DNA from: a virus
Direction: 5' to 3' (one strand)
IMG/VR virus record: IMGVR_UViG_3300042544_002266
Coordinates: 1 to 43,029 of that record
Length of the DNA: 43,029 nt
Of the stretch, positions 3,199 through 37,951 are shown piece by piece. Every line of letters begins with the position of its first letter. Position 1 is the stretch's first letter. A program made the translations under genes and the position numbers. Under the pieces are notes generated by a model. It had not been told where the DNA came from. It searched no databases and worked only from the letters and a program-made list of their open reading frames with translations.

Positions 3199-3954
3199 AT
3201 GTTAGATTTTGATTTAAAAATATATGAAATGAAAGATGTTTTGGCAACTGAAGATTATAATGAGTTGTCAGAACTTGTCGGTGATTTTAAAATAGACTTA
3301 AATAAAATAATCTCATCTTTAGGTTTTTTACAATGGTCTAAAAAAATACAGGATGCAATGAAAAATAAACATCCTGAAGAATTTGAAAGAATCGTAACAA
3401 ATAATCAATTAACATATGAAGACTTTAAATTGCTTGCGGTGATTAATGATGAAGTTGGGTTAAACATAAGCGATAGAACGTTATTTCATACAGACTATGA
3501 TTATTTTAATTTTTTATTAACACATAGGGATGATGAATTAATGAGTAGTAGACTTATAAAACTTTATGATAAAGCATTTAGATTTATTTTAGAAGACTTA
3601 TTTAAAAAAGAAGTAATTTTTAAAGATGTCTTATTCGGTCATTTTAATGTGTACCCAAAAGATTCGTTTATTGTTAACCATACCGATGGACCAACGGCAC
3701 ACAATAGATATTTCACAATATTATTTTTTCTGAATAAAGGTAGAAAATATGAGGATGGTTCATTGTTAAGAGTGTACAAAGAAAATGAGGTAATTGAATT
3801 TATTCCTGATTTTAATAAAATAATTTTACTTGACCATATGAAGTATAATTACGAACACGAGGTAACTAAAAACTTATCTGATGATGTTCGTTATTCTTTA
3901 TACACACCATTTAGTATTGATGATTATAATAACAGGTTAAAACAAGACACATAA
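3199..3954 (+). CDS. 2-oxoglutarate/Fe(II) oxygenase-like protein (prolyl-hydroxylase type)
   Basis: The C-terminal half of this 251-residue protein matches the double-stranded beta-helix fold of 2OG-Fe(II) dioxygenases. A Fe-binding H-x-D is at H161/D163 (N-H-T-D-G), the distal His at H220 (Y-E-H-E-V), and a 2OG-binding Arg at R231, with typical strand spacing and an 'ilfFLNkg..yedGsLlr' middle segment. These enzymes couple oxidation of 2-oxoglutarate to hydroxylation of a protein, sugar or small molecule. The N-terminal 130 residues are helical and not recognised. It lies between two secreted outer-membrane-like genes, so it could modify a product of the same operon, but it has no signal peptide and would act in the cytoplasm. 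The substrate is unknown. Confidence 0.75.
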   Translation: MLDFDLKIYEMKDVLATEDYNELSELVGDFKIDLNKIISSLGFLQWSKKIQDAMKNKHPEEFERIVTNNQLTYEDFKLLAVINDEVGLNISDRTLFHTDYDYFNFLLTHRDDELMSSRLIKLYDKAFRFILEDLFKKEVIFKDVLFGHFNVYPKDSFIVNHTDGPTAHNRYFTILFFLNKGRKYEDGSLLRVYKENEVIEFIPDFNKIILLDHMKYNYEHEVTKNLSDDVRYSLYTPFSIDDYNNRLKQDT

Positions 3955-6708: not shown

Positions 6709-8727
6709 TTACAATATTTTTTTTGTAATTGTTAATTTTTCGTCTTTATATTTTATAGTCACTCCCGTATTTTCAACAATATTTCCACGTAAAATCTCCT
6801 CACTTAAAAAATCTTCGCAGAGATTTTGAATGATTCTTTTTATTGGTCGTGCACCATATTGTTCCTCTGAATTAAGTTCGAAAATTCTATTCACAACAGA
6901 TTTATCAAACACAATTTTATAGTTCTTTTCTTTCAATCGGTCATTTAATCTACCTAATTCGATATTGATGATTTTTTTCAACGTCTCATCGTTTAATGGG
7001 TTGAAGGTTATAATGTCATCAATACGATTCAAAAATTCAGGATTGAATTGTTGTTTTAGTGCTTTCTGAATGATTGACTTTTTAACTTCGGCTTTTTGTG
7101 TTTCTTTACTGTTCGTAGCAAAACCCATACCATCACCAAACTCCATAACTTTTTTTGCACCTACGTTAGAAGTCATTATGATTAGTGTATTGGTGAAGTT
7201 AACTTTTCGACCAAAGGAATCCGTTAAATGACCCTCATCAAGTATTTGTAATAGAATATTGAACACATCTTTATGTGCCTTTTCAATTTCATCAAAAAGG
7301 ATTACCGAAAATGGATTGTTCTTAACTTTTTCAGTTAATTGACCTCCTTCATCATACCCAACATAACCCGGAGGAGAACCGATTAATCTTGATACGTTGT
7401 GTTTTTCCATAAACTCACTCATATCAACGCGAATAATTTTATTAGGGTCACCAAATAAAATATCTGCAAGTGATTTAGCTAAAAATGTTTTACCAACACC
7501 GGTGGAACCTAAAAAGATAAATGAACCAATTGGTTTATTTGTGTCTTTAATCCCAACTCTATTTCTGCGAATTGATTTAGAAATAATACTAATAGCGTCG
7601 TCCTGACCAATAACTTTTGAAGATAATAGACCCTCTAAACTCAGTAGTTTTTCAGTCTCTTTAGAATCTAACTTACTGATTGGTACTCCAGTCATATTTG
7701 AAACGATTTCATACACATCCTCAACCGACACAGGAGTCTTATTATTTTTTTGATTTGATGTCCACTTTTCTTTCTCTTCGTCAAGTTTCTTTAGAATCTT
7801 TCTTTCCTCATCTCTTAATTTTGCTGCCTGTTCATAGTTTTGACTTTTGACAACCTGAACTTTCTTTTCTTTAAGTTCCTCCGCTGACTTTTTCAAAGAC
7901 TCAATAATTTCAGGAACCTTGCCTGATATTTTTTTATCTGAACCTAATTCATCTAAAATGTCAATTGCCTTATCAGGAAATTGTCTGTCAGTAATGTAAC
8001 GAGACGCCAAAGTTGTGATAGTTTCAACTACGTTATCTTGATACTGAACTTTATGGAAATCTTCATATGATGACTTTAAATTCTGAAGTATCTCAACTGT
8101 CTCTTCTTGAGTCGGTTCTTTCAAAACAATTTTTTGGAATCTTCTAACTAACGCACCATCCTTTTCAATATGTTTTTTAAACTCATCGAATGTGGTTGCT
8201 CCGATACATTGCATTTCACCTCTTGCAAGTGCCGGTTTTAAAATATTAGCAGCATCCATAGCACCACTAGCATTACCTGCACCAACCATAGTGTGTAATT
8301 CGTCGATAAACACAATCACATTTGGATTTTCTTGAAGTTCGTTAAGAATTGCTTTGATTCTCTCTTCAAATTGTCCTCTATACTTAGTTCCTGCAACAAG
8401 TGATGTTAAATCTAACGACACTAATCTTTTATCTAACAAACTACTTGGACAATTACCCTTACTGATTTGTAATGCCAATTTTTCTACAAGTGCAGATTTA
8501 CCTACACCCGCATCACCAACAATCACCACATTATTCTTTTTCTTACGAGAAAGAATTTGTGTGATTCTTTTTACTTCCTTTTCTCTCCCAACAACAGGGT
8601 CTATTTTTCCTTCTTCTGCAAGTTTTATCAAATCCCTTGAGAAATTATCAAGAATAGGTGTTGTTGAATTTGTTCTTTTGTTTTTTTGTACGGGCTTCGA
8701 ACCCTCTTCGAAAAAATCTACAGACAT
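6709..8727 (-). CDS. ClpC-like AAA+ protein unfoldase lacking the Clp N-domain
   Basis: This 672-residue protein has two AAA+ modules. The first has Walker A GDAGVGKS (71-78), Walker B V-I-V-F-I-D-E (137-143) and a pore loop K-Y-R-G (115-118). The second has GSTGVGKT (407-414), V-I-L-F-D-E (475-480) and pore loop G-Y-V-G (454-457). A UVR-like helical segment between them (about 283-320) marks it as ClpC rather than ClpB. M-G-F at 534-536 sits where ClpC carries its ClpP-docking loop. Cellular ClpC is about 810-850 residues; here the N-terminal Clp_N repeats are replaced by about 30 residues. It probably unfolds proteins, perhaps for the host ClpP; no phage ClpP is in the window. It is divergent from the Hsp20 gene. 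Confidence 0.92.
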
Positions 8728-12214: not shown

Positions 12215-13051
12215 ATGAAACGTAACGAAATCGTTGGTAAATTAATCAAAGAAGGGTTTTCTCAAAGTACATTAGTTAATATGTCTGATAAACAATTAGG
12301 TATGTTAGCGGAAAGACTTGTTGTGACCCCTGACCAATTAAAAAACCCTGCAATTGCTGCGGTTGCGAATGACCCTAAAAAAGATGTTGTAGTTAAATCT
12401 GCGGAAGTTACCGAAGAGAAACCAAAAGCAGGACTTTCTAAAAAAACATTAAAAGGAAAACAAACAAAAATCGATAAAAACCACAATGGTAAAATTGATG
12501 CTCAAGATTTTAAAATATTAAAAGGACAGAAAAAAGAAGTTAAGGAAGAACTAAAAGGAAATCAAGAAAAAATTGATAAAAACAAAAACGGAAAGATTGA
12601 TTCTGAAGACTTTAAGTTATTAAAATCCAAAAAGAAGACCGATATTAAAAAGAAATTAGAAGATTTAGATAAAAAAGAAGTTAACGAGTGGGTTGATAAA
12701 TTGGTAGAAAATGATTATCATTCATTAACAACCAAAGATGAAATTATGGAACTTATTAAAATTAAGTTGAACGAACAACCCGATGTAATGGAACCTGATA
12801 TTGATGTGGAACCAGATATTGATATTGAACCTGATATTGATTCGCCTCCTTCACCTGATAAAGACCCTTTCATTGACCCTTGGCAAAATCCTGGTGAAGG
12901 ACCTGACCCAAGACCTAAATTTGAAACGGGTAAGGGGATGCCGGAGTTTTTAAAATTTAAGAATATTTTAAAATCAATGAATCAACCAAAAAATCAAGCA
13001 GATACCATATCGGAATCTGTTATGAACAAAATCAGAAAAATATTAAAATGA
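12215..13051 (+). CDS. EF-hand-containing phage protein
   Basis: This 278-residue protein has two canonical calcium-binding EF-hand loops: D87-K-N-H-N-G-K-I-D-A-Q-D98-F and D121-K-N-K-N-G-K-I-D-S-E-D132-F, 34 residues apart, each with acidic or Asn ligands at 1, 3, 5, the Gly at 6, Ile at 8 and Asp at 12. The final Asp (not Glu) and loop spacing resemble dockerin-like or prokaryotic EF-hands. Flanking regions are Lys-rich helices; near residue 190-215 there is an E-P-D-I-D-(V/I) repeat and a Pro-rich segment. It could use Ca2+ to order or cross-link in the virion. The start directly abuts the previous stop and the end overlaps the next start (ATGA). Confidence 0.7.
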   Translation: MKRNEIVGKLIKEGFSQSTLVNMSDKQLGMLAERLVVTPDQLKNPAIAAVANDPKKDVVVKSAEVTEEKPKAGLSKKTLKGKQTKIDKNHNGKIDAQDFKILKGQKKEVKEELKGNQEKIDKNKNGKIDSEDFKLLKSKKKTDIKKKLEDLDKKEVNEWVDKLVENDYHSLTTKDEIMELIKIKLNEQPDVMEPDIDVEPDIDIEPDIDSPPSPDKDPFIDPWQNPGEGPDPRPKFETGKGMPEFLKFKNILKSMNQPKNQADTISESVMNKIRKILK

Positions 13052-14298
13052 CAAAAAAGGAATTTAATGAGGCAATGAAATTCGCTAACAATAGTAGACC
13101 TGACGCGGCTGTTGGGGATAAGTTAGCGAGTAGAGAAACGCCGTTTAAAAAAGTAGATTTTCCTGAACCGGATGACGAAGGTTATTCTAATTACGAAGAG
13201 TTATTAGCGACCGACGAATACGATACTGCATTACAAAGATTAGCGGAGTACACCGGAAACGCAAACATCGGTTCTGGTATTCAAGGAGGTTATTATCAAT
13301 TATCAATTCAAGCAAGTAGAATACTTTCTGAAATTCAAAATGCTGAGAGAACTCACGAAGTTGAATTAGAGGAGTTGTGTGAGAGAATGATACGTGAGTA
13401 TTTTAAAATTCCTGAAAATAGATTACAATTCGACATTAAGTTAGAAACTCAAAGTATGCAGGTGAATCAAGACCCTACAGAAGCTGAGGTACAGGAACAA
13501 GAAGAAGAATTAGTTGATGAGATATTAAACTTAGAAAGAGCAAAAAGAAGATTGTTAAACGCAATGACTCAAGGTCACGCAGTTGATGGGACTTGGATGT
13601 TTAAAAATGTTATACCTGAAATCCAAAGAATTACAGGTGTTGAAAATTTAACTGACAAGTATGCGATTTTCGTATCTACTATGATGTTAGGATATTGGCA
13701 ATTTCCTGAAACTATGATGGAAATGGTGATGTCGGAAGCGGGTGCTGCTGGTAAAACGAGACTTGATTCAACAACAAATCCACCAACAGTAGTTGCGAGA
13801 GCGGTTATATTCCCATTCTTAATTCACGAAGCAATTAAAGGTGTAATGGAATTCTTATCAAAACAAAGAAATCCTGAAAATCCTGAAATGGTTCAAAGAG
13901 CAATGGATTTAGAAGATAATGTTCGTGATGAAATATGGGACATTAGATTAGGACCAGCAATTTGGAGAAGATTATATTCATTATATCCTGAGGCAATCAG
14001 AAATGAAGAAGATAAAAAGAGATTACAATTCTACATTTATTCAAATGTTGCAAACTTACCAGCTAAAGAATTTTTAGTATTAATGAAAGAAGTAATTGGT
14101 AATACTGAAATGGGTAAGAAGTTAATAGGAGCAATGTACTATGACTTAACGAGAAAAGTAGATGATGAACAAGTTACAAAGTCAACTTCGGAGTTTAGGA
14201 AGTTGATTGACGAAATAACTCCCAAAGTGGAAGAAGACGATTTAAAGAATTTATTGTCAGGACTGAATATCAGTTTATCAAATGAAGGAGGTTCTTAA
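13048..14298 (+). CDS. Conserved-looking virion/packaging protein, 416 aa, family unknown
   Basis: I do not recognise this 416-residue protein. It is mostly helical with even composition; notable features are a 'N-A-E-R-T-H-E-V-E-L-E-E-L-C-E-R-M-I-R-E-Y-F' helix near residue 98-118, a hydrophobic M-M-L-G-Y-W-Q-F-P patch and an 'IWRRLYSLYPEA' motif. It starts with an ATGA overlap with the EF-hand gene and ends inside a strong terminator, immediately before terminase. That place, in T4-like phages, often holds small terminase, neck or head-completion genes, but none of those is recognised in its sequence. Confidence 0.6.
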   Translation: MTKKEFNEAMKFANNSRPDAAVGDKLASRETPFKKVDFPEPDDEGYSNYEELLATDEYDTALQRLAEYTGNANIGSGIQGGYYQLSIQASRILSEIQNAERTHEVELEELCERMIREYFKIPENRLQFDIKLETQSMQVNQDPTEAEVQEQEEELVDEILNLERAKRRLLNAMTQGHAVDGTWMFKNVIPEIQRITGVENLTDKYAIFVSTMMLGYWQFPETMMEMVMSEAGAAGKTRLDSTTNPPTVVARAVIFPFLIHEAIKGVMEFLSKQRNPENPEMVQRAMDLEDNVRDEIWDIRLGPAIWRRLYSLYPEAIRNEEDKKRLQFYIYSNVANLPAKEFLVLMKEVIGNTEMGKKLIGAMYYDLTRKVDDEQVTKSTSEFRKLIDEITPKVEEDDLKNLLSGLNISLSNEGGS

Positions 14299-14310
14299 CC
14301 TCCTTTTTTT
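14285..14310 (+). terminator. Terminator overlapping the stop codon before terminase
   Basis: A 9-bp stem AAGGAGGTT (14285-14293) with AACCTCCTT (14297-14305) closes a three-base loop and runs into seven T. The TAA stop of the preceding gene lies in the loop and stem. The GTATTTATA motif of terminase starts one base after the T-tract. Confidence 0.88.
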
Positions 14311-14311
14311 G

Positions 14312-14319
14312 TATTTATA
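14312..14319 (+). promoter_or_regulatory. TATTTATA motif for terminase
   Basis: TATTTATA ends 3 bases before the ATG at 14323 and begins 1 base after the terminator's T-tract. Any transcript started from it would be nearly leaderless. Confidence 0.6.
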
Positions 14320-14322
14320 CAT

Positions 14323-16089
14323 ATGAGTACCAAGATAGAACAATTAAAAGAATATGCTAAAATCATTAAAGATACACCGTATGCTTTAAGAACATATTTG
14401 CAAACGTATGATAATACTCAGAAGAAATACGTTCCAATGAATTTATTTCCTGACCAATTACAATTGATTCAGGATTATGAAGATTACAACGAAAACATCA
14501 CCAAAAAATATCGTCAAGCGGGGGTAACAACAGTAACCGCTGCTTGGTTATCTAAAAAATTACAATTAGCGAAACCTGAAAACCCTGAAAGAGTTCTAAT
14601 CATTGCAAACAAAAGAGATACCGCAATTGAGATGGCTAATAAAGTTCGTAACTTTTTAGAACAATGGCCTGAATGGTTAAATGTTGGTTTCTCACCTGAT
14701 AAAAACTCTGAAAGTAGATTTAGATTAAATAACGGATGTGAGGTAAAAGCCGTTGCAACATCTGCGGATGCGTTACGTGGTTATACACCGACAGTACTTG
14801 TATTTGACGAAGCCGCTTATATTGAAGCCGGCGAAGATTTCTGGGCAGCATCTATGGCGTCACTATCTACGGGTGGTAAGATTATCCTAATCTCAACACC
14901 AAATGGTTATGACCCAATTTATTACGGTGTTTACGACCAAGCTTTACGTGGTATCAATGACTTCCATATAACCGATTTAAGATGGTTTAAAGACCCTCGT
15001 TATACCAAAGACTTACGATGGGTAAAATGTAACGATATATGTCATTATATGTTGAATAGAGAACAATATAATGATGATGATGTTGTGTTAACAGAATTTG
15101 ATATTGAAAAATATCGAGAATTGGAAGAACAAGGTTATAAACCATTCTCATCTTGGTTTGAATCTATGTCTAAAAAATTCAAATACGACAGACGTAAGAT
15201 TGCGCAGGAATTGGAGTGTGACTTCTTAGGTTCAGGGGACGGTGTAATTCCTGGCGACATTCAAGAGAATATTGCCAAGAATATGATTAGAGTTCCATTT
15301 GAGAAGTATATGCAAGGAACTTTTTGGCATTGGAAGGAACCAGTACAAGACCATCGTTACATTATGGGTGTGGACGTGAGTAGAGGAGATAGTGAGGATT
15401 TCTCATCCATTAACATTATTGATTTTGATGAAAGAGAACAAGTTGCTGAATATATTGGTAAGATACCTCCGGATGATTTAGCAGCAATTGCTTATAAATG
15501 GGGGGTGTTGTATAATGCATTCATTGTGATAGATATTACAGGAGGTATGGGGGTCGCTACATCAAGAAAATTACAGGAATTAAATTATAAAAATCTATAC
15601 ATTGATGGTATTAATACTCAAAACATATGGGAGTATAATAAGAAAGCAATGGATAAGATACCCGGTTTAAACTTCAATAATAAAAGAACACAGATTGTTG
15701 CGGCATTTGAAGAACAATTGAGGAAGGGTTTTCAAGTTAGGTCAAGTAGATTGTTAAATGAACTTAATACGTTTGTTTATATGAATGGTAGACCTGACCA
15801 TATGAAAGGTGCTCACGATGATGCGATTATGAGTATGTCTATGGCATTATACGCTGGTGACTTATGTTTCAATCAATTACAAAGAACTGATGCACAAAAC
15901 AAAGCGATGTTGGATTCTTGGGTTTTATCTGAAAGAACGTATGAGGCAAGTAAAACCTTTTATTCTTATGGTACAACATTCGACCCAATCGGTTCGATGG
16001 CGAGTGAAGGTTTTGGTGGTGGTCAACCACAAACACCAAATAAACAGGCGTATGGTGAGTATAGTTGGTTATTTGGTAAACCTAAATAA
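14323..16089 (+). CDS. terL: Terminase large subunit (gp17-like)
   Basis: This 588-residue protein contains the ATPase and nuclease domains of a T4-type large terminase, the motor that packs DNA into proheads. The ATPase has a deviant Walker A, K62-Y-R-Q-A-G-V-T-T70, in which the usual G-K-T lysine is Val and a Lys sits at the front of the loop. Walker B is V-L-V-F-D-E (158-163) and the coupling motif I-S-T-P-N-G is at 190-195. RuvC-type nuclease acids are D351 (G-V-D-V-S-R-G), D404 (V-I-D-I-T-G-G) and D499/D500 (G-A-H-D-D-A). Length fits gp17 (about 610). It is preceded by a terminator and late motif; portal follows. Confidence 0.95.
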   Translation: MSTKIEQLKEYAKIIKDTPYALRTYLQTYDNTQKKYVPMNLFPDQLQLIQDYEDYNENITKKYRQAGVTTVTAAWLSKKLQLAKPENPERVLIIANKRDTAIEMANKVRNFLEQWPEWLNVGFSPDKNSESRFRLNNGCEVKAVATSADALRGYTPTVLVFDEAAYIEAGEDFWAASMASLSTGGKIILISTPNGYDPIYYGVYDQALRGINDFHITDLRWFKDPRYTKDLRWVKCNDICHYMLNREQYNDDDVVLTEFDIEKYRELEEQGYKPFSSWFESMSKKFKYDRRKIAQELECDFLGSGDGVIPGDIQENIAKNMIRVPFEKYMQGTFWHWKEPVQDHRYIMGVDVSRGDSEDFSSINIIDFDEREQVAEYIGKIPPDDLAAIAYKWGVLYNAFIVIDITGGMGVATSRKLQELNYKNLYIDGINTQNIWEYNKKAMDKIPGLNFNNKRTQIVAAFEEQLRKGFQVRSSRLLNELNTFVYMNGRPDHMKGAHDDAIMSMSMALYAGDLCFNQLQRTDAQNKAMLDSWVLSERTYEASKTFYSYGTTFDPIGSMASEGFGGGQPQTPNKQAYGEYSWLFGKPK

Positions 16090-16133
16090 TCCTTTATTTA
16101 TCCAATAAAAAAGAATATATTTTTAAGAAATAG

Positions 16134-16141
16134 TATTTATA
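16134..16141 (+). promoter_or_regulatory. TATTTATA motif for portal
   Basis: TAGTATTTATA ends 3 bases before the portal ATG at 16145, in a 55-base gap with no other gene. Confidence 0.6.
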
Positions 16142-16144
16142 GTT

Positions 16145-17980
16145 ATGGCAGAAAATAATTTAACGGTATTTCAGAAACTCACGAAGGTTTTTGGTTTTCA
16201 AGGAAAATCAAAAGACGAATCACCGTCATTCAATCTTAACAGAGATGAGATATTAAAAACCGACAGCAAGGAGGACTATGAAAAGGCGTTACTACAAGCC
16301 CAACAATCACAGTACGTTGCTGACAAGTGGACTAAGTTAGACCAATCATTATATAATCAATCGGTTTATTACGAACCAAATAGATTATCGGCATATTATG
16401 ATTATGAATCTATGGAATTCACACCTGAGATTTCTGCTGCGTTAGATATCTACGCAGAAGAATCGACAACAATGTCTGAAAAGGGTGAGATACTAACAAT
16501 ATATTCAGAGTCAAAAAGAATTAAAGGAATTCTTGAAGATTTATTTAAAGAAAAATTAGACATTAACACTAACCTACAAATGTGGGCTAGAGGTATGTGT
16601 AAGTATGGTGATGATTTTGTGTTTCTTAAAGTTGACCCTGAAAGAGGTATTGTAGGATGTCAACAATTACCGAACATCGAAATTGAAAGAGTTGAGGGAG
16701 CAGCACTTAAGAACTTAGCGGCAGCGCCTAAAGATTCTAAAATACCAACAAGAGAATTAAGATTTAATTGGAAGAATAAAGATATTGAATTCCAAGCTTG
16801 GGAAATTGCTCACTTTAGAATTTTAGGTGACGATAGAAAATTACCTTACGGTACTTCTATGTTAGATAAGATTAGAAGAATTTGGAAACAACTTTTACTT
16901 GCTGAAGATGCGATGTTAATTTACAGAACATCAAGAGCACCTGAAAGACGTGTATTCAAAGTATTTGTAGGTAATATGGACGATAAGGACATTGAACCAT
17001 ATGTACAACGTGTAGCAAACAAATTCAAAAGAGATACGGTAGTTGACCAAAAGAATGGTAACGTAGATATGAGATATAATCAGATGGCAGTAGACCAAGA
17101 TTATTTCATCCCTGTACGTGACCCCGCACAAACTAACCCAATCGAGACATTACCGGGAGCGGCTAATTTAGGTGAGATTGCGGATATTGAGTATATTCAA
17201 AAAAAGATGTTAGCAGCACTTCGTATTCCAAAAGCATTTTTAGGATTTGAAGAGGTTGTTGGTGATGGTAAAAATCTTGCGTTAATGGATATACGTTTTG
17301 CAAGAACTATCAATAGAATACAAAAATCATTAATACAAGAATTAAATAAAATTGCGTTAATTCATTTATATCTTTTAGGGTTAGAAGATGAATTACATAA
17401 CTTTAGTTTATCGTTAACTAACCCATCATCTCAATCTGATTTACTTAAGATTGAACAATGGAAAGAGAAGGTTACATTGTACAAAGATGCAACATCGGAT
17501 AACTCACAACTTGGTATATTACCGGTATCACATACTTGGGCTAAGAAAAATATACTTGGATTTAGTGATAATGAAGTTATACTTGATTTACAACAACAAA
17601 GACTTGAGAGAGCAATTGGTGGTGAGTTAGCAGCAACAGCTACTATCATTAAACGTTCAGGAGTATTTGATGAGGTAGATTCTAAGTACGGAATACCTGA
17701 AGAAGAAAGAGAAAAACTTGAAGCGTCAGGTGGAGCGGCACCGGCCGAAGGTGGAATGCCGGGTGGTGATATGGGAATGGGAGCACCGGCAGATATGGGA
17801 GCACCGGCAGAAGCAACCCCACCAGCAGGGGCAGCACCATTAAGTGAATCAAGAAAAGATAAGATTTTATCTATGTTAGGAGATGATTCTGAAAAATTAG
17901 AGGATTTATTTGATATTAATAAAGCCCAACAGAATATTTATGAGATAGAAAATAAATTGAAAGATATATTAAACGACTAA
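16145..17980 (+). CDS. Portal protein (gp20-like)
   Basis: This 611-residue protein aligns by eye with T4 portal proteins. The diagnostic segment R-A-P-E-R-R-V-F-K-V-F-V-G-N (about 260-275) is the gp20 signature, followed by the long stem helix with 'YIQKKMLAALRIPKAFLGFEE' and the 'NRIQKSLIQELNKIALIHLYLLG' helix. Twelve copies form the gated ring through which DNA enters and leaves the head. It follows terminase as in T4-like genomes, though sheath and tube genes that sit between 17 and 20 in T4 are absent here. The C-terminus has an added Gly/Ala/Pro/Met-rich linker (about 525-560) and a helical tail. Confidence 0.94.
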   Translation: MAENNLTVFQKLTKVFGFQGKSKDESPSFNLNRDEILKTDSKEDYEKALLQAQQSQYVADKWTKLDQSLYNQSVYYEPNRLSAYYDYESMEFTPEISAALDIYAEESTTMSEKGEILTIYSESKRIKGILEDLFKEKLDINTNLQMWARGMCKYGDDFVFLKVDPERGIVGCQQLPNIEIERVEGAALKNLAAAPKDSKIPTRELRFNWKNKDIEFQAWEIAHFRILGDDRKLPYGTSMLDKIRRIWKQLLLAEDAMLIYRTSRAPERRVFKVFVGNMDDKDIEPYVQRVANKFKRDTVVDQKNGNVDMRYNQMAVDQDYFIPVRDPAQTNPIETLPGAANLGEIADIEYIQKKMLAALRIPKAFLGFEEVVGDGKNLALMDIRFARTINRIQKSLIQELNKIALIHLYLLGLEDELHNFSLSLTNPSSQSDLLKIEQWKEKVTLYKDATSDNSQLGILPVSHTWAKKNILGFSDNEVILDLQQQRLERAIGGELAATATIIKRSGVFDEVDSKYGIPEEEREKLEASGGAAPAEGGMPGGDMGMGAPADMGAPAEATPPAGAAPLSESRKDKILSMLGDDSEKLEDLFDINKAQQNIYEIENKLKDILND

Positions 17981-17982
17981 AA

Positions 17983-18720
17983 ATGAACAAAATCGGGGTT
18001 TTAAAAACCAAAATATTAAAGAAACTTACAGAATCTTATTCAAGTCAGAACAAATCTGAAATGAAGGATATCCTAAAAACAATAAAGGAAAACAAAGATT
18101 TCAAAGAATTATACCTTTTCTACGAAGAGATTGAAAACAAATACTTTGAGGATAAAGAAGTTGCCAAACTATATGTTGAGGAACTAAACACAATCCTTAA
18201 GTCTAAATCAAAATCAATTGTTGAGTTTTGTAGTTCATTAAATGAAAAATTAGGTGATTTAGAAATTAACGAAAACGAAGTTTATTCAACACTTGACCAA
18301 TTATTGGAAGATGATAGTTTAAACAACATAGATAAGAAGGTAATTGCAAAGAAAAAATTAGTTAGTCATTTAACCACTAAAAAAGAGGTAAATGAATCCA
18401 CTATAGACGGAGTGGTTCCAAACGAAAATTTATTACACGCTGTATTGGCAAACAATTTCAACGTATTATATTCAAACAGTTTAAACGAAGAACAACAAGA
18501 AGAATTAAAAACAATCCTTTCAATGTCTCAAGAAGATTTAGAAAAGAACATCACAGAATTAAAAGAATCAGTACTATCCCAAGTGGGAACGATATTATCT
18601 GAAAATCAGGATAATGATTTAACAACAAAATTAAATCAAGTTCAAAAAGAGGTAAACGAAATGAATTTTAGTAAGTTTAATCTCTACAAACTTAAAGAAT
18701 TAAAAAATGGTCTTAATTAA
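17983..18720 (+). CDS. Helical prohead-core-like protein, 245 aa
   Basis: The family of this 245-residue protein is not recognised. It is almost entirely helical, Lys/Glu-rich, with leucine-spaced heptad stretches at about 50-75, 150-195 and 205-240, and no Cys-rich or catalytic motif. It starts 2 bases after the portal stop and precedes the protease, where T4 carries small core proteins (gp67/gp68), so an internal scaffold role is plausible. The last residues, ...K-N-G-L-N, are encoded by the palindromic terminator and repeat exactly at the end of the convergent bS21 gene. Confidence 0.6.
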   Translation: MNKIGVLKTKILKKLTESYSSQNKSEMKDILKTIKENKDFKELYLFYEEIENKYFEDKEVAKLYVEELNTILKSKSKSIVEFCSSLNEKLGDLEINENEVYSTLDQLLEDDSLNNIDKKVIAKKKLVSHLTTKKEVNESTIDGVVPNENLLHAVLANNFNVLYSNSLNEEQQEELKTILSMSQEDLEKNITELKESVLSQVGTILSENQDNDLTTKLNQVQKEVNEMNFSKFNLYKLKELKNGLN

Positions 18721-18734
18721 GACCATTTTTTTTT
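18702..18734. terminator. Bidirectional palindromic terminator between the core-like gene and bS21
   Basis: The sequence AAAATGGTCTTAATTAAGACCATTTT around a centre at 18716/18717 is a perfect palindrome flanked by A- and T-runs, so it terminates both convergent genes. Both stop codons lie inside the palindrome and the two ORFs overlap by 8 bases. Confidence 0.85.
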
Positions 18735-18904
18735 GACTCTATGTAAATCGCCTTTAATTTTTGTGTTCTTTTTTTAACTGACGGTTTTACAAATTCCTGT
18801 CTTTCTCTTAGTTTTTGGATTTGTTTAGTCTTTTGGACTTTTTGTTTATAAGTCCTAAGTGCAGACTCAATACCCTTTTCATTTTTAATTTCTATTATTA
18901 ACAT
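18713..18904 (-). CDS. rpsU: Phage-encoded ribosomal protein bS21
   Basis: This 63-residue basic protein matches bS21, especially the Bacteroidota form: I-E-S-A-L-R-T-Y-K near residue 12, then K-L-R-E-R-Q-E-F-V-K-P-S-V-K-K-R and K-L-K-A-I-Y. bS21 sits on the 30S platform next to the 3' end of 16S rRNA. In Flavobacterium johnsoniae it is known to help sequester the anti-Shine-Dalgarno. Genes for bS21 are known from some phages. It is inserted backwards in the head cluster, with its own TATTTATA motif 18 bases upstream, and ends in the shared terminator. A phage copy could replace the host protein and shift which mRNAs are translated; that effect is inferred. Confidence 0.9.
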   Translation of the reverse strand: MLIIEIKNEKGIESALRTYKQKVQKTKQIQKLRERQEFVKPSVKKRTQKLKAIYIESKKNGLN

Positions 18905-18922
18905 ATTTTACTTTTTGTATTT

Positions 18923-18930
18923 TATAAATA
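18923..18930 (-). promoter_or_regulatory. TATTTATA motif for bS21
   Basis: On the minus strand ATATTTATA ends 18 bases before the ATG at 18904. No Shine-Dalgarno sequence is present between them; the leader is A-rich. Confidence 0.5.
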
Positions 18931-19002
18931 TATTTTGGAAATACAAGAATTTTTCATTATATTTTTATTACACCATAAAATGAAAAAATATGTACAAAGA
19001 TA

Positions 19003-19428
19003 ATGAAAACTGGGAAATTTATACCCCTTGGATATTGTGAAAATGTAAAAATCGGTTACGGTACTGTAGATTTTAAAAATTTAAAGACTGTATACATAAA
19101 ATTAAACTCTTGGCTATTACCCGAAAATGAGACGGATGACTTTAATCAAATCCTATCAAAGACAAGAAGAGATATTAAAACCTATCTATATTATTTAGAA
19201 AATGACTTCTTTAGAAAAGAAAACATCGTCGATTTAGATGTTAGAACTAAAGGAATAAAATTAGAGAAAAAGTCATTTATGAATTTAGAGATTACATTAT
19301 TTGTTAAAAATCAATTCGATATTAGAGATGTAAATGTTAAAAAAACAATCAAATCTATATCGGAAAACATTATTAATAATAATTTAAAAGACAAAAATCT
19401 GTTTAATTTCTACAAGAACAAGAAATAA
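19003..19428 (+). CDS. Hypothetical protein, 141 aa, between bS21 and protease
   Basis: I do not recognise this 141-residue protein. The sequence is basic and mixed alpha/beta, with K-I-G-Y-G-T-V-D-F-K-N, a helix around T-R-R-D-I-K-T-Y-L-Y-Y-L-E, and an end rich in Lys and Asn. It is divergent from bS21 and precedes the prohead protease, the place of T4 core genes 67/68, but no similarity to either is seen. The start at 19003 follows an A-rich stretch without a Shine-Dalgarno. Function is unknown; a morphogenesis role is possible from position. Confidence 0.6.
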   Translation: MKTGKFIPLGYCENVKIGYGTVDFKNLKTVYIKLNSWLLPENETDDFNQILSKTRRDIKTYLYYLENDFFRKENIVDLDVRTKGIKLEKKSFMNLEITLFVKNQFDIRDVNVKKTIKSISENIINNNLKDKNLFNFYKNKK

Positions 19429-19443
19429 GTTGGGATATTGATG

Positions 19444-19451
19444 TATTTATA
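19444..19451 (+). promoter_or_regulatory. TATTTATA motif for prohead protease
   Basis: GTATTTATA ends 15 bases before the ATG at 19467 in the short gap between genes. Confidence 0.55.
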
Positions 19452-19466
19452 GTATAAAAACTGTAA

Positions 19467-20150
19467 ATGAAGATATTAGGTCCAAACGAGACGGGTAAAG
19501 GAATATTAATCGAATACGACGCAGGACACGTCTCTCCCGACGACAACAAAAAAATTATATCAGAAATGAAGGGTATGGACTTCTCAGAAGACCTTATCCT
19601 TTATGCTGTTTTACAAAAATACGACACACCTAACAAAAACGGGAGAATCTATCCCGAAGTTCTTCTTAAGAGAGAGAACGAAAAATACCAAACTCTTATT
19701 AAAAAGGGTGGAGCATTAAATGAGTTAAATCACCCTTCATCTTCACTTATCGATTTAGATAGAGTATCTCATTCTATTATCGAGACTTGGTGGGATGGTA
19801 AAATGTTAATGGGTAAAATTAAACTATTCACTTCTCCTGGTTGGAAGAAGATGGGTATTGTTTCTACCAAAGGGGACCAAGCGGCAATGTTAATTATGAA
19901 CGGTGCAACTTTAGGTATCTCTTCTCGTGGTGTAGGTTCACTTAAGAATATTAAAGGTCAAAACATTGTTCAGGAAGATTTTGAACTTGTGTGTTTTGAC
20001 TTGGTATCGTCTCCATCTACACCCGGAGCATACGTTTTCCCTGAATTATCTGATAGAGACAAGTATCAAGAATCCATCGAAGAAAAAGGTGAGGGATTTG
20101 ATAAAATGAAATCTTTAATGGGAAAATTAGATAACTTTTTATCTAAATAA
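19467..20150 (+). CDS. Prohead maturation protease (gp21-like)
   Basis: This 227-residue protein has the features of T4 gp21-type serine proteases. They are a His in G-G-A-L-N-E-L-N-H-P (H89), the Ser region A-T-L-G-I-S-S-R-G (S152/S153) and a central G-R-I-Y-P patch at about 59-63. The enzyme cleaves the scaffold and the capsid N-terminus after (I/L)-x-E during head maturation. It precedes the acidic scaffold and capsid genes, as in T4. The N-terminal 40 residues are less conserved. In T4 the protease activates itself; the same is expected here. Confidence 0.92.
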   Translation: MKILGPNETGKGILIEYDAGHVSPDDNKKIISEMKGMDFSEDLILYAVLQKYDTPNKNGRIYPEVLLKRENEKYQTLIKKGGALNELNHPSSSLIDLDRVSHSIIETWWDGKMLMGKIKLFTSPGWKKMGIVSTKGDQAAMLIMNGATLGISSRGVGSLKNIKGQNIVQEDFELVCFDLVSSPSTPGAYVFPELSDRDKYQESIEEKGEGFDKMKSLMGKLDNFLSK

Positions 20151-20204
20151 TGAATTTTATAGGGGTATCTATATTGAAAAAGTAAATTTTTCATAAAATC
20201 GTAG

Positions 20205-20212
20205 TATTTATA
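20205..20212 (+). promoter_or_regulatory. TATTTATA motif for scaffold and capsid genes
   Basis: TAGTATTTATA ends 23 bases before the scaffold ATG at 20236. The capsid gene at 21444 lacks its own motif, so it is probably transcribed from here. Confidence 0.55.
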
Positions 20213-20235
20213 AGATAATAAAACAAACAAAAAAG

Positions 20236-21411
20236 ATGAGTCAAAAATCTATTTTAGAACAAGCGTTACTTCAAGTACAAACACTTGAAGAAGCAGTAAA
20301 GCAAAATGCAAAAGGTATACTTGCTTCAACTATGAAACAAGAACTAAACGATTTGCTTAAAGAACAAGTAGAAGAGGAAGAATCTGACGTACCGGTTGTT
20401 GAACAACCAGAGGACGAAGTTAATCCTGAAGAAGATGAAGATGTAACAGATGATGAATCTGCTGATGATGAAACTTCAATAAACGACGAACCGGCTGACG
20501 AAGACGAAATCGCTGACGAACCTGAATCTGATGAAGAAGGTGAAATGGGTGGTGAAGAATTTGGAGCTGAAGATGAAATGTCTGATGACGAAATGTCTGA
20601 TGAAATGTCTGACGACGATGTTGTAGATATGACCTCAGCATCTGATGATGAAGTACTTAAAGTATTCAAAGCTATGAAACCTGAAGATGGTATCGTAGTT
20701 AAAAAGGAAGGTGATAAAATTTCACTTAACGTTGACGACCAAGAGTATATCATTAAATTAGATGGTGAAGGTGAGTCTCCTGAAATGGGACTTGCTGAAG
20801 GTGAATACAACGAAGGTGATGTGGACACATCAATGTTAGAAGGTGATGACGAAGACGGAACAGTTTACGAAATCACTCTTGACGAAGATGAAATCGCATT
20901 AGATAAAGAAGAATCTGAAGAACCTAAAAAAGTTGAAGCTACCGAAGCTGCCAGAACTCAAGCTAACGATGTTAGAGGTGAGGGACCACGTCAAGGTAAG
21001 AAATTCAAAGCAGGACGTCCACAATTAAATGAAGAAGTTGAAACTTTAAAGAAACAAAATGCTGAATACAAGAAAGCATTAGTATTATTCAAAGAAAAAC
21101 TTAACGAAGTTGCTGTGTTCAATGCAAATTTAGCTTACGCAACGAGATTATTCACAGAACATTCAACAACAAAACAGGAGAAATTGAGTATTTTAAAAAG
21201 ATTTGATTCTATTTCAACTATAAACGAAGCTAAAAATCTTTACAAATCAATTAAAACCGAATTAGACACTAAAAAACCAATGACTGAATCGGTGGTTGAA
21301 AAAATCACATCAACTCCACAAACTTCTTCTACTGAAGTATTATCTGAAGCTAAGGCTTACGAAAATCCTCAATTTAGAAGAATGAAAGATTTGATGAGTA
21401 AAATAAAATAA
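20236..21411 (+). CDS. Prohead scaffold/core protein (gp22-like, highly acidic)
   Basis: This 391-residue protein has a helical N-terminus, a long Asp/Glu-rich middle (about residues 48-235) containing E-M-S-D-D repeats, and a helical C-terminal third with coiled-coil character. Position between protease and capsid, acidity and helices fit T4 gp22, the internal core that is removed by the protease. It is longer than gp22 (about 270 residues) because of the acidic middle. It has several possible (I/L)-x-E cleavage sites, including near the acidic block and in the C-terminal helix. Sequence identity to gp22 itself is not demonstrable by eye. Confidence 0.8.
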   Translation: MSQKSILEQALLQVQTLEEAVKQNAKGILASTMKQELNDLLKEQVEEEESDVPVVEQPEDEVNPEEDEDVTDDESADDETSINDEPADEDEIADEPESDEEGEMGGEEFGAEDEMSDDEMSDEMSDDDVVDMTSASDDEVLKVFKAMKPEDGIVVKKEGDKISLNVDDQEYIIKLDGEGESPEMGLAEGEYNEGDVDTSMLEGDDEDGTVYEITLDEDEIALDKEESEEPKKVEATEAARTQANDVRGEGPRQGKKFKAGRPQLNEEVETLKKQNAEYKKALVLFKEKLNEVAVFNANLAYATRLFTEHSTTKQEKLSILKRFDSISTINEAKNLYKSIKTELDTKKPMTESVVEKITSTPQTSSTEVLSEAKAYENPQFRRMKDLMSKIK

Positions 21412-21443
21412 TAATAAAAAAACAAAAAAAATACAATTTTAAA

Positions 21444-23165
21444 ATGGGAGCATTATTAGAATCAGGTATGGTAGGTAACATCGGTCTTAAGCACCTTCGT
21501 GTTATCAAAGAAGATACCCTTAAAAAATGGGATGACTTAGGCTTTTTAGAAGGTCTTAACGGTCACCAAAAAGATAACATCGCGCAATTATATGAAAACC
21601 AAGCGTCTTATTTAATCAACGAAGCAGCAGTATCTGATGCTTCTGGTTCTTTCGAGACTGTGGTATTCCCTATCATTCGTCGTGTATTCTCTAAATTATT
21701 AGCTAACGACATCGTGTCTGTACAAGCTATGAACTTACCAATTGGTAAATTATTCTACTTCATTCCTAAAATTCAATCAAGAGATGGTGTTAACCACCGT
21801 CAACCTTATGGAATGCCAAGTAACAACGACGCAGCAGATGCTGGTTACACAGATAACAGAAACCTTTACGATAGCTTCTATGAGGCTGGTGATGGTAACT
21901 CTCCTTCTGAAGGTTTATTTGATTACTCTAAAGGTGCATACTCTGCAGTTACTTTAAACGGTGCAGCAGTTGTAGCATTCTCTAACGGTGTGGTTGATGA
22001 TGTAACAAGAGCATCTTTAACTGGTACAACTCAATCTAACTTAGTAATTAAATTCTCTGGTTTCACTAAAGACGGTCAAGGTAAGTTAATCGGACCTAAC
22101 GGTTCTGTAATGGATACTGAAGAATTCTTAGCAGGTGCTGAAATTTTCGTAAGTGGAGCATCTAAAAACTTTAACATCGTAACTCAAAAATACGGTAAAG
22201 GTATTATCGAGTACGGTTCTAAAGCAACTTCTGCTTTCCCTGGTGGTCGTTTCCAAGATATCTGTGATGAAGACGGTGTAATCTACATCAACGTAGACTT
22301 ACAAACTTACTCTGCAACTGCAGGTTTCGGTAACGCACAATTATCTAACACTTTCCAAGCTTCAGATGTAACTTTACAATTTAGAGTTTACAGTGACTTA
22401 GAATTTGAAGATAAGATTGGTGAAGTATCTTTCGATTTAGAATCAGTAACTGTTTCTGTAACTGAAAGAAAATTAAGAGCTAGCTGGTCTCCAGAATTAG
22501 CACAAGACGTAAGTGCATTCCACAACATCGACGCAGAAGCTGAGTTAACAGCATTGTTATCTGAGCAAATCGCAGCAGAAGTTGACCGTGAAATTTTACG
22601 TGACCTTCGTAAAGGTGCTGCTTGGACAACTAAGTGGGATTACAACGAATGGAGATATGGTAACGGTGGTGTTGCTTTCGCAGGTTACACTCAAAAAGAC
22701 TGGAACCAAACGTTAATCACTAAGATTAACCAATTATCAGCTCAAATCCATAAGTCTACTTTGAGAGGTGGTGCTAACTGGATTGTTGTTTCTTCAGAAG
22801 TTTCTGCAGTATTCGACGATTTAGAATATTTCCACGTATCAAACGCTCATCCTGAGCAAGACCAATACAATATGGGTATCGAGAAAGTAGGTACGTTAGC
22901 AGGTAGATATCAAGTTTACCGTGACCCTTACTTCCCAGCTAATAAAATCTTAATTGGACACAAAGGTAAATCATTATTGGACGCTGGTTACATCTACGCA
23001 CCATATGTACCTTTACAATTAACTCCAACAATGTACAATCCTTTCAATATGACCCCAATCAAGGGTATTATGACAAGATACGCAAAGAAAATGGTAAACA
23101 ACCGTTACTACGCGACTATCACAGTTAGAGGATTACAATCATTTAGCTTGGATACCTTAAGATAA
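21444..23165 (+). CDS. Major capsid protein (gp23-like)
   Basis: This 573-residue protein carries the gp23 N-terminal signature 'flegLnGHqKdNIAQLYENQ' (about 34-53) followed by L-I-N-E60/A61, which matches the prohead protease consensus (I/L)-x-E, as in T4 where gp23 is cut after residue 65. The rest has the HK97-type capsid layout with the familiar C-terminal 'MTRYAKKMVNNRYYATITVRGL' stretch. Codon use differs from its neighbours: more AAC, TTC, CGT, GGT and GCT, as expected for the most highly translated protein. Its leader is A-rich without a Shine-Dalgarno. A hairpin terminator follows. Confidence 0.95.
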   Translation: MGALLESGMVGNIGLKHLRVIKEDTLKKWDDLGFLEGLNGHQKDNIAQLYENQASYLINEAAVSDASGSFETVVFPIIRRVFSKLLANDIVSVQAMNLPIGKLFYFIPKIQSRDGVNHRQPYGMPSNNDAADAGYTDNRNLYDSFYEAGDGNSPSEGLFDYSKGAYSAVTLNGAAVVAFSNGVVDDVTRASLTGTTQSNLVIKFSGFTKDGQGKLIGPNGSVMDTEEFLAGAEIFVSGASKNFNIVTQKYGKGIIEYGSKATSAFPGGRFQDICDEDGVIYINVDLQTYSATAGFGNAQLSNTFQASDVTLQFRVYSDLEFEDKIGEVSFDLESVTVSVTERKLRASWSPELAQDVSAFHNIDAEAELTALLSEQIAAEVDREILRDLRKGAAWTTKWDYNEWRYGNGGVAFAGYTQKDWNQTLITKINQLSAQIHKSTLRGGANWIVVSSEVSAVFDDLEYFHVSNAHPEQDQYNMGIEKVGTLAGRYQVYRDPYFPANKILIGHKGKSLLDAGYIYAPYVPLQLTPTMYNPFNMTPIKGIMTRYAKKMVNNRYYATITVRGLQSFSLDTLR

Positions 23166-23187
23166 TCTTAATTATCAATAGTAAAAG

Positions 23188-23212
23188 ACCCTCGAGAAAT
23201 CGGGGGTTTTTT
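23188..23212 (+). terminator. Terminator after the major capsid gene
   Basis: Stem ACCCTCGA (23188-23195) with TCGGGGGT (23200-23207, one G-T pair) closes a GAAA loop and runs into a T-tract, like the terminator after Hsp20. Confidence 0.85.
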
Positions 23213-23215
23213 ATT

Positions 23216-23247
23216 TTTGGTATATTCCAGAATATTTCTTATATTTG
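23216..23247 (+). promoter_or_regulatory. Bacteroidota-type promoter abutting a start codon
   Basis: TTTG (23216-23219), 20 bases, then TATATTTG (23240-23247), a perfect TAnnTTTG -7 element, ends only 3 bases before the ATG at 23251. Transcription would therefore begin at or just inside the start codon. It lies directly after the capsid terminator. Confidence 0.7.
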
Positions 23248-23250
23248 CGT

Positions 23251-23568
23251 ATGGCGGAAAATATGGACTATAGCAAACTAAGATTAGACGTTCTTGAGAA
23301 GATGGTCTATTCGAGGGGTATTGAGTGTAAAATGAAAAAAGATGAGATGGTTAAGGTATTGAAACTCGATGATGAGGGTAAATACGAACCACCAATGAAT
23401 AACACGATATACGAGAAAGCAGAGGGTGGATTTAATGTAGGTGTGGATTTGAGAAATCAATCCGATTTAAATCAATTAGGAAAATTGGTTGAGAAAAAAG
23501 ATGCAAAATCACTTAACAGATATTCGGACAATAGGGTTTGGTATTGGTCGAAAGGTAAATTAATATGA
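23251..23568 (+). CDS. Small SAP/HeH-like protein
   Basis: This 105-residue protein has an N-terminal 'YSKLRLDVLEKMVYSRGIECKMKKDEMVKVLKLDD' type helix-extension-helix (residues about 6-42) resembling SAP/HeH DNA-binding motifs. The rest is unrecognised, with a V-G-V-D-L-R patch and a Trp-rich end (V-W-Y-W-S-K-G-K). It starts at 23251 just after a host-type promoter and overlaps the next gene (ATGA). In T4-like phages similar small proteins follow capsid and may bind DNA or the head; this is inference. Confidence 0.65.
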   Translation: MAENMDYSKLRLDVLEKMVYSRGIECKMKKDEMVKVLKLDDEGKYEPPMNNTIYEKAEGGFNVGVDLRNQSDLNQLGKLVEKKDAKSLNRYSDNRVWYWSKGKLI

Positions 23569-24749
23569 AAATATACGTACACAATTATTACTCAAAACAG
23601 TTATTTTTTAAATTGTGTCATAACACAACTGATAAGGAATTTAACATATCAGGAAGATTGGCAAACGTTAAATGTAATTACAATGGAATTACATACGAAT
23701 TAGTATTCAATCCGGATATTCATAATAATACCGACGGATTACACTTGATTGATTATTATTCAATTAGACAAGACTTTCAAAGTTATCCGGATTTTAAAGA
23801 TTGTGGAAGTTCAGATACTATGGTCGATGTTTCGGTTATGTCTAAACTATCCGATATTCTTGAGGATAAATTAAATTGGATAGTCCTTATTTTTAAAACG
23901 GAAAAAATATTCTCAAAATACGACGAGGAACCAAATCAACATATGGTTGAATTTGAGAGAAACATTGATAGGTTGTATAAACATAAAGTATTGACTGATA
24001 ATGTTTTATTAAACAAGGAGTACCTACATAAAAATCCAAATGTTTATTTTACATTTACCAATGTCATTTTTAATTGGAATGGACATAATGATTTAAGATG
24101 GTATTACGAGTTCAAATATATCTTCAATAGATTGGACCACGAATATAAATTAGGGTATTCAATAATGACCTCTAAGTCCCACAGGAAACTCATAGCCAAT
24201 GGGTTAAAAGACATTAAAGATGTTACTGTGTCTCAATCTGATAAACTAAGTAATGACTTTGTTGAGGGGGTAGAAATTAACAAATACAATGGTGAAACTG
24301 ATTTTGATAATGTTGATTACATAGTAAATCTACATAATGGTTTAGATATGTTTTTCAGAAGGTTATCCAAATCTAAAATGCACGTATTAGATGAGAGTCA
24401 CGGAGGAAAAAAATATGATGTTGTTTTTCATTATTTAACTGAAAAAACTCTTGGGTTTGTACTTGCGGAGATTCCGTTTATTTCAACACATTCATACCCA
24501 TTGGATTGTATTCACAAAATGATAGATATTGAGGAACATCCTTTTATGGATAGTTTCAGAAAACATAAGGGTGACCCGTTACTATTTGTTGAATTTGTAA
24601 AAGAATTTATGTGGGATTTTGACCACAACTATAACTTATGTAAAGAGTGGTCGATTAAGTGTCATAATAAGTTTATGGAAAAAATAAATAAAGAAAATTC
24701 ATTATTTGATTTAATACAAGAAATATGGAATGGACAGAATACTTTTTAG
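23565..24749 (+). CDS. Possible glycosyltransferase-like protein, 394 aa
   Basis: This 394-residue protein is not firmly recognised. Near residues 290-315 it has T-E-K-T-L-G-F-V-L-A-E-I-P-F-I-S-T, which resembles the (S/T)EKt...kPFi motif in exostosin-like and phage GT-type proteins. Its beginning (V-H-N-Y-Y-S-K-Q-L-F-F-K-L) and many His/Asp residues do not show a catalytic DxD. It overlaps the SAP-like gene by 4 bases and the deaminase gene by 25 bases, so all three are coupled. The weak call should be tested with profile searches. Confidence 0.55.
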   Translation: MKIYVHNYYSKQLFFKLCHNTTDKEFNISGRLANVKCNYNGITYELVFNPDIHNNTDGLHLIDYYSIRQDFQSYPDFKDCGSSDTMVDVSVMSKLSDILEDKLNWIVLIFKTEKIFSKYDEEPNQHMVEFERNIDRLYKHKVLTDNVLLNKEYLHKNPNVYFTFTNVIFNWNGHNDLRWYYEFKYIFNRLDHEYKLGYSIMTSKSHRKLIANGLKDIKDVTVSQSDKLSNDFVEGVEINKYNGETDFDNVDYIVNLHNGLDMFFRRLSKSKMHVLDESHGGKKYDVVFHYLTEKTLGFVLAEIPFISTHSYPLDCIHKMIDIEEHPFMDSFRKHKGDPLLFVEFVKEFMWDFDHNYNLCKEWSIKCHNKFMEKINKENSLFDLIQEIWNGQNTF

Positions 24750-36721: not shown

Positions 36722-37951
36722 TTATTTGTTAATAATTGATTTGAAAAATTCTGCTCTATTTTTATTGACTGTGTTTAAAGAATATGTGTCTTTTACAGTT
36801 TCGTAAAGTCTATTCCCTAAATCCTCAACCATATTAGGATTCTCAACTAATTTTTTCATATGTTGAGCCCATTGTTTGTGATTTTTTCTTGGCGAAACCA
36901 AAAGAGCGTTTCCCTTATTATTGAAAACACCTTGGTCTACCGCACTCACTAAATCAATTGTGTATGGGTCACACTCACTTGCAATAATTGCTTTTTTATG
37001 AAAACCTGCCTCAATAACTTTTAATTGTGATTTATTTCCATTAAATAAACTTTCAACTACAGGTGCTAAAGATACATCGAATAAATTATAATTCGTTGCA
37101 TATTTTGATATTTCTCTTGTCCATCTTCTTCTATATGGTTCATTAATATCGTTGTATTCTTCTTCCTTAAATGTTAATAAGAAATTTTTATATTCTTCAG
37201 ATAATATTTTGTAGTCATCTGTGAAGATTTTTTCATACTGATACCATACGGTTTCCATTGGTTTAATTTGTCTTTGTTTAATCTCTCCGGTTTGTTCGTT
37301 AATCTCATTAACGTTACCTCTTAAATCAAATCCACAAAGGACAAATTGTACTTTATCTTTAAATGTATGTAATGTACTTGAAATACCACTTTTAATTAAT
37401 TCTAAATCGTGGAAGTGCGATGAACCACCTAACCAACCAAATCTAACTTTGTCTGATTTTTCGGGATTAGGTTTAAATTGTGATTCAGTTTCGTCAACGG
37501 CATTTGGGAATACTAAAACATTCTTAACTCCCAATTTTTTCATAATGGTATCTCTAAAAACAGGAGTAGTTGTGGTTACATAATCTGCGGCTCTTAATAA
37601 TTGAACTTTCTTTTTATGAGTTTCACTTTTAATGATTTGTCTAAACATTGGGTGTCTGTGGTCAGGTTCCCAATAATCATCAATATCCACAACTACAAGG
37701 ATACCCTTTTTCTTTAACCATTCAATTCTTTGAATATTCTTTTCGAATGGTACGTTGTTGTGAATAAAGCTATGAAGAACAACAACATCGTAGTTATCGA
37801 ATTCAGAATCATTATCTTCGACACTATATTTGATATCGATATGAAAGTCGTTTCCGTAATTTTCTTGTAAATGGGTATAAGGTCCCATAATCCTAAATTT
37901 ACCGACACCATATTGGTCAGAAGGTACTGCTAAAATTCTAATTTTTGACAT
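36722..37951 (-). CDS. Glycosyltransferase family 4-like protein
   Basis: This 409-residue protein has a GT-B layout: an N-terminal Rossmann start (I-R-I-L-A-V-P-S-D-Q-Y-G-V-G-K-F-R), a V-V-D-I-D-D-Y-W strand with Asp-rich patch near 90, N-A-V-D-E and V-R-F-G-W-L-G-G-S-S-H (about 170-180), and the C-terminal helices with S-L-A-P and V-I-E-A-G-F-H-K-K-A-I-I-A-S-E. Such enzymes build sugar chains using nucleotide-sugar donors. It is the third glycosyltransferase in the minus-strand block; no membrane segment is seen. It could decorate virion proteins or capsule-like surfaces. Confidence 0.8.
   Translation of the reverse strand: MSKIRILAVPSDQYGVGKFRIMGPYTHLQENYGNDFHIDIKYSVEDNDSEFDNYDVVVLHSFIHNNVPFEKNIQRIEWLKKKGILVVVDIDDYWEPDHRHPMFRQIIKSETHKKKVQLLRAADYVTTTTPVFRDTIMKKLGVKNVLVFPNAVDETESQFKPNPEKSDKVRFGWLGGSSHFHDLELIKSGISSTLHTFKDKVQFVLCGFDLRGNVNEINEQTGEIKQRQIKPMETVWYQYEKIFTDDYKILSEEYKNFLLTFKEEEYNDINEPYRRRWTREISKYATNYNLFDVSLAPVVESLFNGNKSQLKVIEAGFHKKAIIASECDPYTIDLVSAVDQGVFNNKGNALLVSPRKNHKQWAQHMKKLVENPNMVEDLGNRLYETVKDTYSLNTVNKNRAEFFKSIINK

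Follow-up and report, generated by a model that had tools for sequence, protein, structure and literature searches.

What does a gene for ribosomal protein bS21 do inside the head-gene block of a phage, transcribed against all of its neighbors? Phage ribosomal proteins bear on how viruses redirect translation, and the locus examined here, part of a 43,029-nucleotide stretch of viral DNA (IMG/VR record IMGVR_UViG_3300042544_002266; the window), raises this question. A preliminary description had proposed that exchange of host bS21 for the phage version could retune translation initiation. We compared the protein, its leader, and its surroundings with those of phage relatives and of cellular bS21 (rpsU) genes. 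The features considered are as follows.

14323 to 16089, plus strand: terminase large subunit (TerL), by profile matches; TATTTATA 11 nt upstream of the start codon
16145 to 17980, plus strand: T4-type portal protein (gp20 family), by profile matches; TATTTATA upstream
17983 to 18720, plus strand: orfA, a helical protein of 245 aa, convergent with bS21 with an 8-nt overlap
18702 to 18731, no strand: palindromic hairpin AAAAAATGGTCTTAATTAAGACCATTTTTT, seen in the sequence and in relatives, which spans both stop codons and encodes NGLN at the C termini of bS21 and orfA
18713 to 18904, minus strand: phage rpsU (bS21, 63 aa, ATG start, Tyr54 conserved), by open reading frame and family matches
18905 to 19002, no strand: divergent bS21/gpB intergenic region, no Shine-Dalgarno sequence (SD); TATTTATA at 18923 to 18930 on the bS21 strand
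19003 to 19428, plus strand: gpB, a conserved protein of 141 aa, divergent from bS21
19467 to 20150, plus strand: prohead protease (S77, gp21 family), by profile matches; TATTTATA upstream
20236 to 21411, plus strand: acidic scaffold-like protein, function presumed from position and composition; TATTTATA upstream
21444 to 23165, plus strand: major capsid protein (MCP, gp23 family), by profile matches

The window encodes a constrained bS21 of Bacteroidota type

The 63-residue product passes the curated bS21 family cut-offs over nearly its full length (PF01165, Ribosomal_S21, E = 3.4e-12, 46.3 bits versus a cut-off of 27; TIGR00030, 37.5 bits versus 28.95) and matches phrog_21469, "ribosomal protein S21" (1.4e-6). 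Its best PDB match is Flavobacterium johnsoniae bS21 (7jil chain z, E = 1.1e-12), to which residues 1 to 62 align without a gap. The Bacteroidota-type aromatic residue at position 54 is present as Tyr54, the residue that reportedly blocks access to the anti-SD in F. johnsoniae; every distinct sequence compared has this tyrosine (39/39 from phages and 51/51 from hosts). The assignment to a Bacteroidota-type bS21 in the preliminary description is thus borne out; its left edge at 18702 also took in the terminator hairpin, and the edge of the reading frame is 18713.

All 39 distinct phage proteins group in a single clade (100% SH-aLRT). Among the distinct phage genes the median dN/dS is 0.12, which indicates purifying selection. 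The nearest cellular bS21s in a genome scan, about 50% identical to the window protein, were mostly from Flavobacterium; this similarity and the literature suggest a Flavobacteriia-like host. These results confirm that the window gene is a real, constrained phage bS21 belonging to a published phage group (Chen et al. 2022, PMC9723584).

Conservation is unevenly distributed along the protein. Across the phage and host sets (39 versus 51 sequences), there is little or no variation at residues 38, 40 to 43, 46, 51, 52, and 54, which include KPSV, R46, K51-A52, and Y54. Near-complete phage/host differences fall at positions 5, 8, 9, 10, 14, 17, 18, 21, 23, 24, 28, and 30, so that the N-terminal half holds nearly all phage-specific substitutions. 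Anchoring of bS21 and covering of the anti-SD have been ascribed to the half kept in the phage. The phage-specific half is the one reported to lie where mRNA binds (PMC9723584), in agreement with Chen et al.

bS21 has a fixed antisense place in the head-gene block

TerL, portal, orfA, gpB, protease, the scaffold-like protein, and MCP all lie on the plus strand, with bS21 alone on the opposite one. As described preliminarily, the gene runs backwards between portal-linked genes and the protease, and its immediate neighbors are orfA and gpB. A scan of IMG/VR found 295 stretches encoding relatives of the window bS21; in 80/80 fetched loci the gene was antisense, between orfA and gpB where these were covered. 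In a second sample, found through the portal gene and partially overlapping the first, bS21 was antisense in all 68 loci in which it was detected, including 61/61 with both flanks, and the other 12 contigs appear to stop short of its position. No relative with both flanks and without bS21 was found in the portal-based sample; two outgroups without bS21 are described by Chen et al. (PMC9723584). The bS21 frame is open in all relatives. Antisense placement within the head block is therefore a fixed feature of this phage group.

The flanking proteins gave no PDB fold match at E ≤ 0.001 from predicted structures of gpB (pLDDT 86) or orfA (pLDDT 75.5). In one relative (L053, 638 to 1708), gpB and the prohead protease form a single 357-aa frame, which may be a fusion or an assembly effect. 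No near-identical phages were found in GenBank for the segment from 14000 to 24000, and the window contains no Rfam matches or tRNAs. Other genes in the window encode a 2OG-Fe(II) oxygenase domain protein (3199 to 3954, plus strand), an EF-hand/dockerin-like repeat protein near the head module (12215 to 13051, plus strand), and a glycosyltransferase-like protein (36722 to 37951, minus strand, phrog_7162). A Clp/ClpB-like double AAA+ ATPase is encoded at 6709 to 8727 on the minus strand (phrog_4871, "ATP-dependent protease," 1e-242). This ATPase is a candidate for the phage-encoded protease against host bS21 on which McNutt et al. (PMC9976891) speculate.

The stop ends of bS21 and orfA share a putative terminator

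The 8-nt overlap between the stop ends of bS21 and orfA falls inside the palindrome at 18702 to 18731, which has T-runs on both sides and is likely a bidirectional intrinsic terminator. Across 21 distinct sequences, pairing within its 11-pair stem stands at 98.7%. Changes on both sides occur at three stem pairs (10 cells; 0/500 shuffles as high; none in slid controls), although 8 of the 10 covarying cells are a single U-A/A-U swap and may represent few events. In four relatives (L045, L051, L052, and L069) the hairpin is kept and the coding overlap is gone. Both proteins end in NGLN, NGLS, or similar in relatives; they share these ends because the hairpin writes both. Chen et al. suggested that conserved bS21 C termini matter for ribosome substitution (PMC9723584). 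For the last residues at least, the putative terminator would explain conservation at the DNA level, and some of the C-terminal conservation read as functional could have this cause instead.

Phage bS21 leaders lack the extended SD of host rpsU

In a paper that also discusses phage bS21 briefly, McNutt et al. (2023, PMC9976891) report autoregulation of host rpsU through an extended SD that bS21-free ribosomes use best. We calculated pairing of bS21/rpsU leaders with the Flavobacterium 16S 3′ tail, which was found in 9/12 host genomes searched. Host leaders paired strongly (n = 35 distinct; median −19.6 kcal/mol, with 25/35 below −13), whereas phage leaders did not (n = 29 distinct; median −0.9 kcal/mol, best −7.4). 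An extended SD, defined as pairing below −13 kcal/mol, was absent from 29/29 distinct phage leaders, none of which fell below −7.4. Leaders within the phage set and within the host set are related sequences, so any p value would overstate their independence. Among the 80 nearest host rpsU loci, 10 had a leader without an extended SD against the Flavobacterium tail. Two weak host leaders (L107 and L131) contain GAGATG, for which the alternative anti-SD of Chryseobacterium-type hosts is a possible partner.

The lack of SDs is shared by the other genes of the window. Over the window genes, 46 leaders did not differ from mock windows in SD signal (P = 0.38, with a 16S tail slightly off that of Flavobacterium), and the preliminary claim that nearly all phage genes lack an SD holds. 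The simplest reading is that the bS21 gene is SD-less because this is the default in its genome. That this fits retuned initiation, as had been argued, we reject on the leader tests, the conservation of Tyr54, and published work: Bacteroidota mRNAs, those of the host included, are SD-less anyway (PMC9976891), so SD-lessness says nothing about retuning, and the anti-SD is predicted to stay hidden since phage bS21 keeps Tyr54. Should the host be one with autoregulated rpsU, its feedback loop would not reach the SD-less phage gene.

The late-type motif is weak on bS21

An exact copy of the late-type octamer TATTTATA lies 26 nt upstream of the bS21 start codon, and the octamer also precedes the TerL, portal, protease, and scaffold genes. 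The window holds 13 copies of RTATTTATA versus 3.7 expected (maximum of 11 in 200 simulations); 11/13 are in the sense direction close upstream of genes. Among relatives, none of the TerL, portal, or scaffold leaders examined lacked the octamer, which also occurred in 29/30 protease leaders, whereas just 11/37 bS21 leaders carry it exactly. Scored with a weight matrix, the window bS21 leader reached P = 0.015; of the bS21 leaders in relatives, 22% passed the 5% threshold. Of the preliminary claim that bS21 has its own late-type motif, the octamer itself is retained; a strong late promoter is not upheld. A different element, TAnnTTTG, occurs in 27/38 bS21 leaders of relatives (2.2 expected from shuffles). 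We take it to resemble the −7 element of Bacteroidota vegetative promoters, and it would allow earlier bS21 expression.

Two further observations concern this region and its neighbors. The octamer lies 11 to 14 nt upstream of the TerL and portal starts in all relatives checked (14312 to 16141 in the window); if it is a −10-type element, these mRNAs would be nearly leaderless. The intergenic region at 18905 to 19002 contains a conserved TTATGGTG element towards gpB; across this region in the window and in relatives, strong conservation is seen for TTATGGTGT, which reads ACACCATAA on the gpB strand.

Proposed competition with host bS21 outside its feedback loop

The explanation that we favor, and for which we judge the chances evenly balanced, is that a functional phage bS21 competes with host bS21 and evades its feedback during infection of a Flavobacteriia-like host. 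Its sequence-level part is in place: bS21 identity, the kept half with Tyr54, a short divergent leader of its own, and no SD. Substitution into host ribosomes, as Chen et al. propose (PMC9723584), is plausible. From the sequence we infer entry into ribosomes, and for timing and effect in the window phage we suggest the following course. Phage bS21 would be made together with the head genes, as metatranscriptomes of relatives suggest (PMC9723584), and would take the site of host bS21 on the 30S platform by competition. It would escape feedback because the extended SD of host rpsU favors bS21-free ribosomes (PMC9976891) and the phage gene is SD-less; the phage mRNA would be translated by ordinary replete ribosomes, outside the loop. 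As phage bS21 filled ribosomes, the anti-SD would be capped and translation of host rpsU would fall. Ribosomes would then drift to phage bS21 while staying competent for SD-less mRNAs, including those of the phage. The leader comparison offers a concrete regulatory reason why bS21 replacement could run one way; the full sequence of immunity to autoregulation, capping of the anti-SD, silencing of SD-dependent host rpsU, and one-way conversion of ribosomes is a tentative proposal and, taken whole, somewhat doubtful.

Several points count against the favored explanation. The bS21 gene may be SD-less simply because genes of the window phage are so by default, and not as an adaptation. Should the true host be of the weak-leader type, as in the 10/80 rpsU leaders without an extended SD, the feedback argument fails. 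The late motif on bS21 is weak, and TAnnTTTG is present in most relatives. The preliminary idea that exchange of bS21 could retune initiation keeps part of its basis, in a protein that is of Bacteroidota type, constrained, and in possession of Tyr54, and loses the argument from SD-lessness. Retuning, if any, more likely acts through the N-terminal half and through regulation, given the missing autoregulatory SD.

The proposal of Chen et al. that the phage N-terminal half specializes ribosomes for late phage mRNAs over host mRNAs draws on this half. Phage-specific residues cluster on this reported mRNA-binding side, and relatives show late coexpression (PMC9723584). However, we found no feature of the mRNAs by which phage and host leaders could be told apart, both groups being SD-less (PMC9976891), and drift in a separate clade or fit to rRNA could account for the substitutions just as well; we consider specialization unlikely. 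Alternatively, the phage copy could top up bS21 once host synthesis stops, with unchanged specificity and no regulatory takeover. Conservation of the C-terminal functional half agrees with such a supply role, under which the phage would need replete ribosomes because F. johnsoniae ribosomes without bS21 or its C terminus initiate poorly on SD-less mRNAs (PMC9976891). It leaves the dozen consistently phage-specific N-terminal positions unexplained and seems to us improbable. A role outside the ribosome, for example in head assembly, virion packaging (raised as a possibility by Chen et al., PMC9723584), or RNA binding, would suit the fixed linkage to orfA and gpB, but retention of the rRNA-binding half and Tyr54 fits ribosome binding and makes such a role very unlikely. 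A nonfunctional relic of host gene capture, suggested by short length only, is exceedingly improbable given a dN/dS of about 0.12, a frame open in all relatives, and a fixed position.

Relation to known systems

The core finding, a phage bS21 antisense in the head block, is already known: Chen et al. (PMC9723584) describe the same gene, strand, place, phage type, host group, and Tyr54 conservation, together with N-terminal divergence and late expression in relatives from metatranscriptomes. The main text of that paper does not take up the leader, terminator, or promoter of bS21, which are described here. In the literature searched we found no published comparison of phage and host rpsU leaders, although other papers or supplements could hold one, and no published report of (i) phage bS21 leaders without the autoregulatory extended SD, (ii) NGL-ending C termini encoded by a covarying, bidirectional putative terminator, or (iii) a late-type motif that is clear on TerL, portal, protease, and scaffold and weak on bS21. 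What these observations on regulation and the terminator add is modest, and it can be tested.

Among known systems, the closest are the huge freshwater Bacteroidetes phages of clades a to e (PMC9723584). In these, as in the window, two hypothetical genes inside the block of TerL, portal, protease, and MCP flank a Bacteroidetes-type bS21 with Tyr54 that is encoded on the reverse strand, and the genes reported include a Clp protease. Their genomes span about 290 to 335 kb, whereas the window is a 43-kb linear fragment; a relative with a 78% identical bS21 lies on an IMG/VR contig of 335,630 bp. The rpsU of host Flavobacteriales (PMC9976891) belongs to the same family, aligns without gaps, and has Tyr54, but the phage gene lacks the extended SD, and its product is about 50% identical and differs at a dozen positions in its N-terminal half. 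The bS21s of uncultured phages of 630 to 735 kb (LR756504, LR756501, LR745206, and LR756502) are 47 to 57% identical to that of the window and fall outside its clade; in contrast to the window's clade, the gene of the 735-kb phage (L246, 4001 to 4171) is preceded by a strong SD (−12.1 kcal/mol). Pelagibacter phage HTVC008M, whose host belongs to a different phylum, likewise encodes a bS21, likened here by description, and according to PMC6375957 as cited in PMC9723584 that protein enters Escherichia coli 70S ribosomes.
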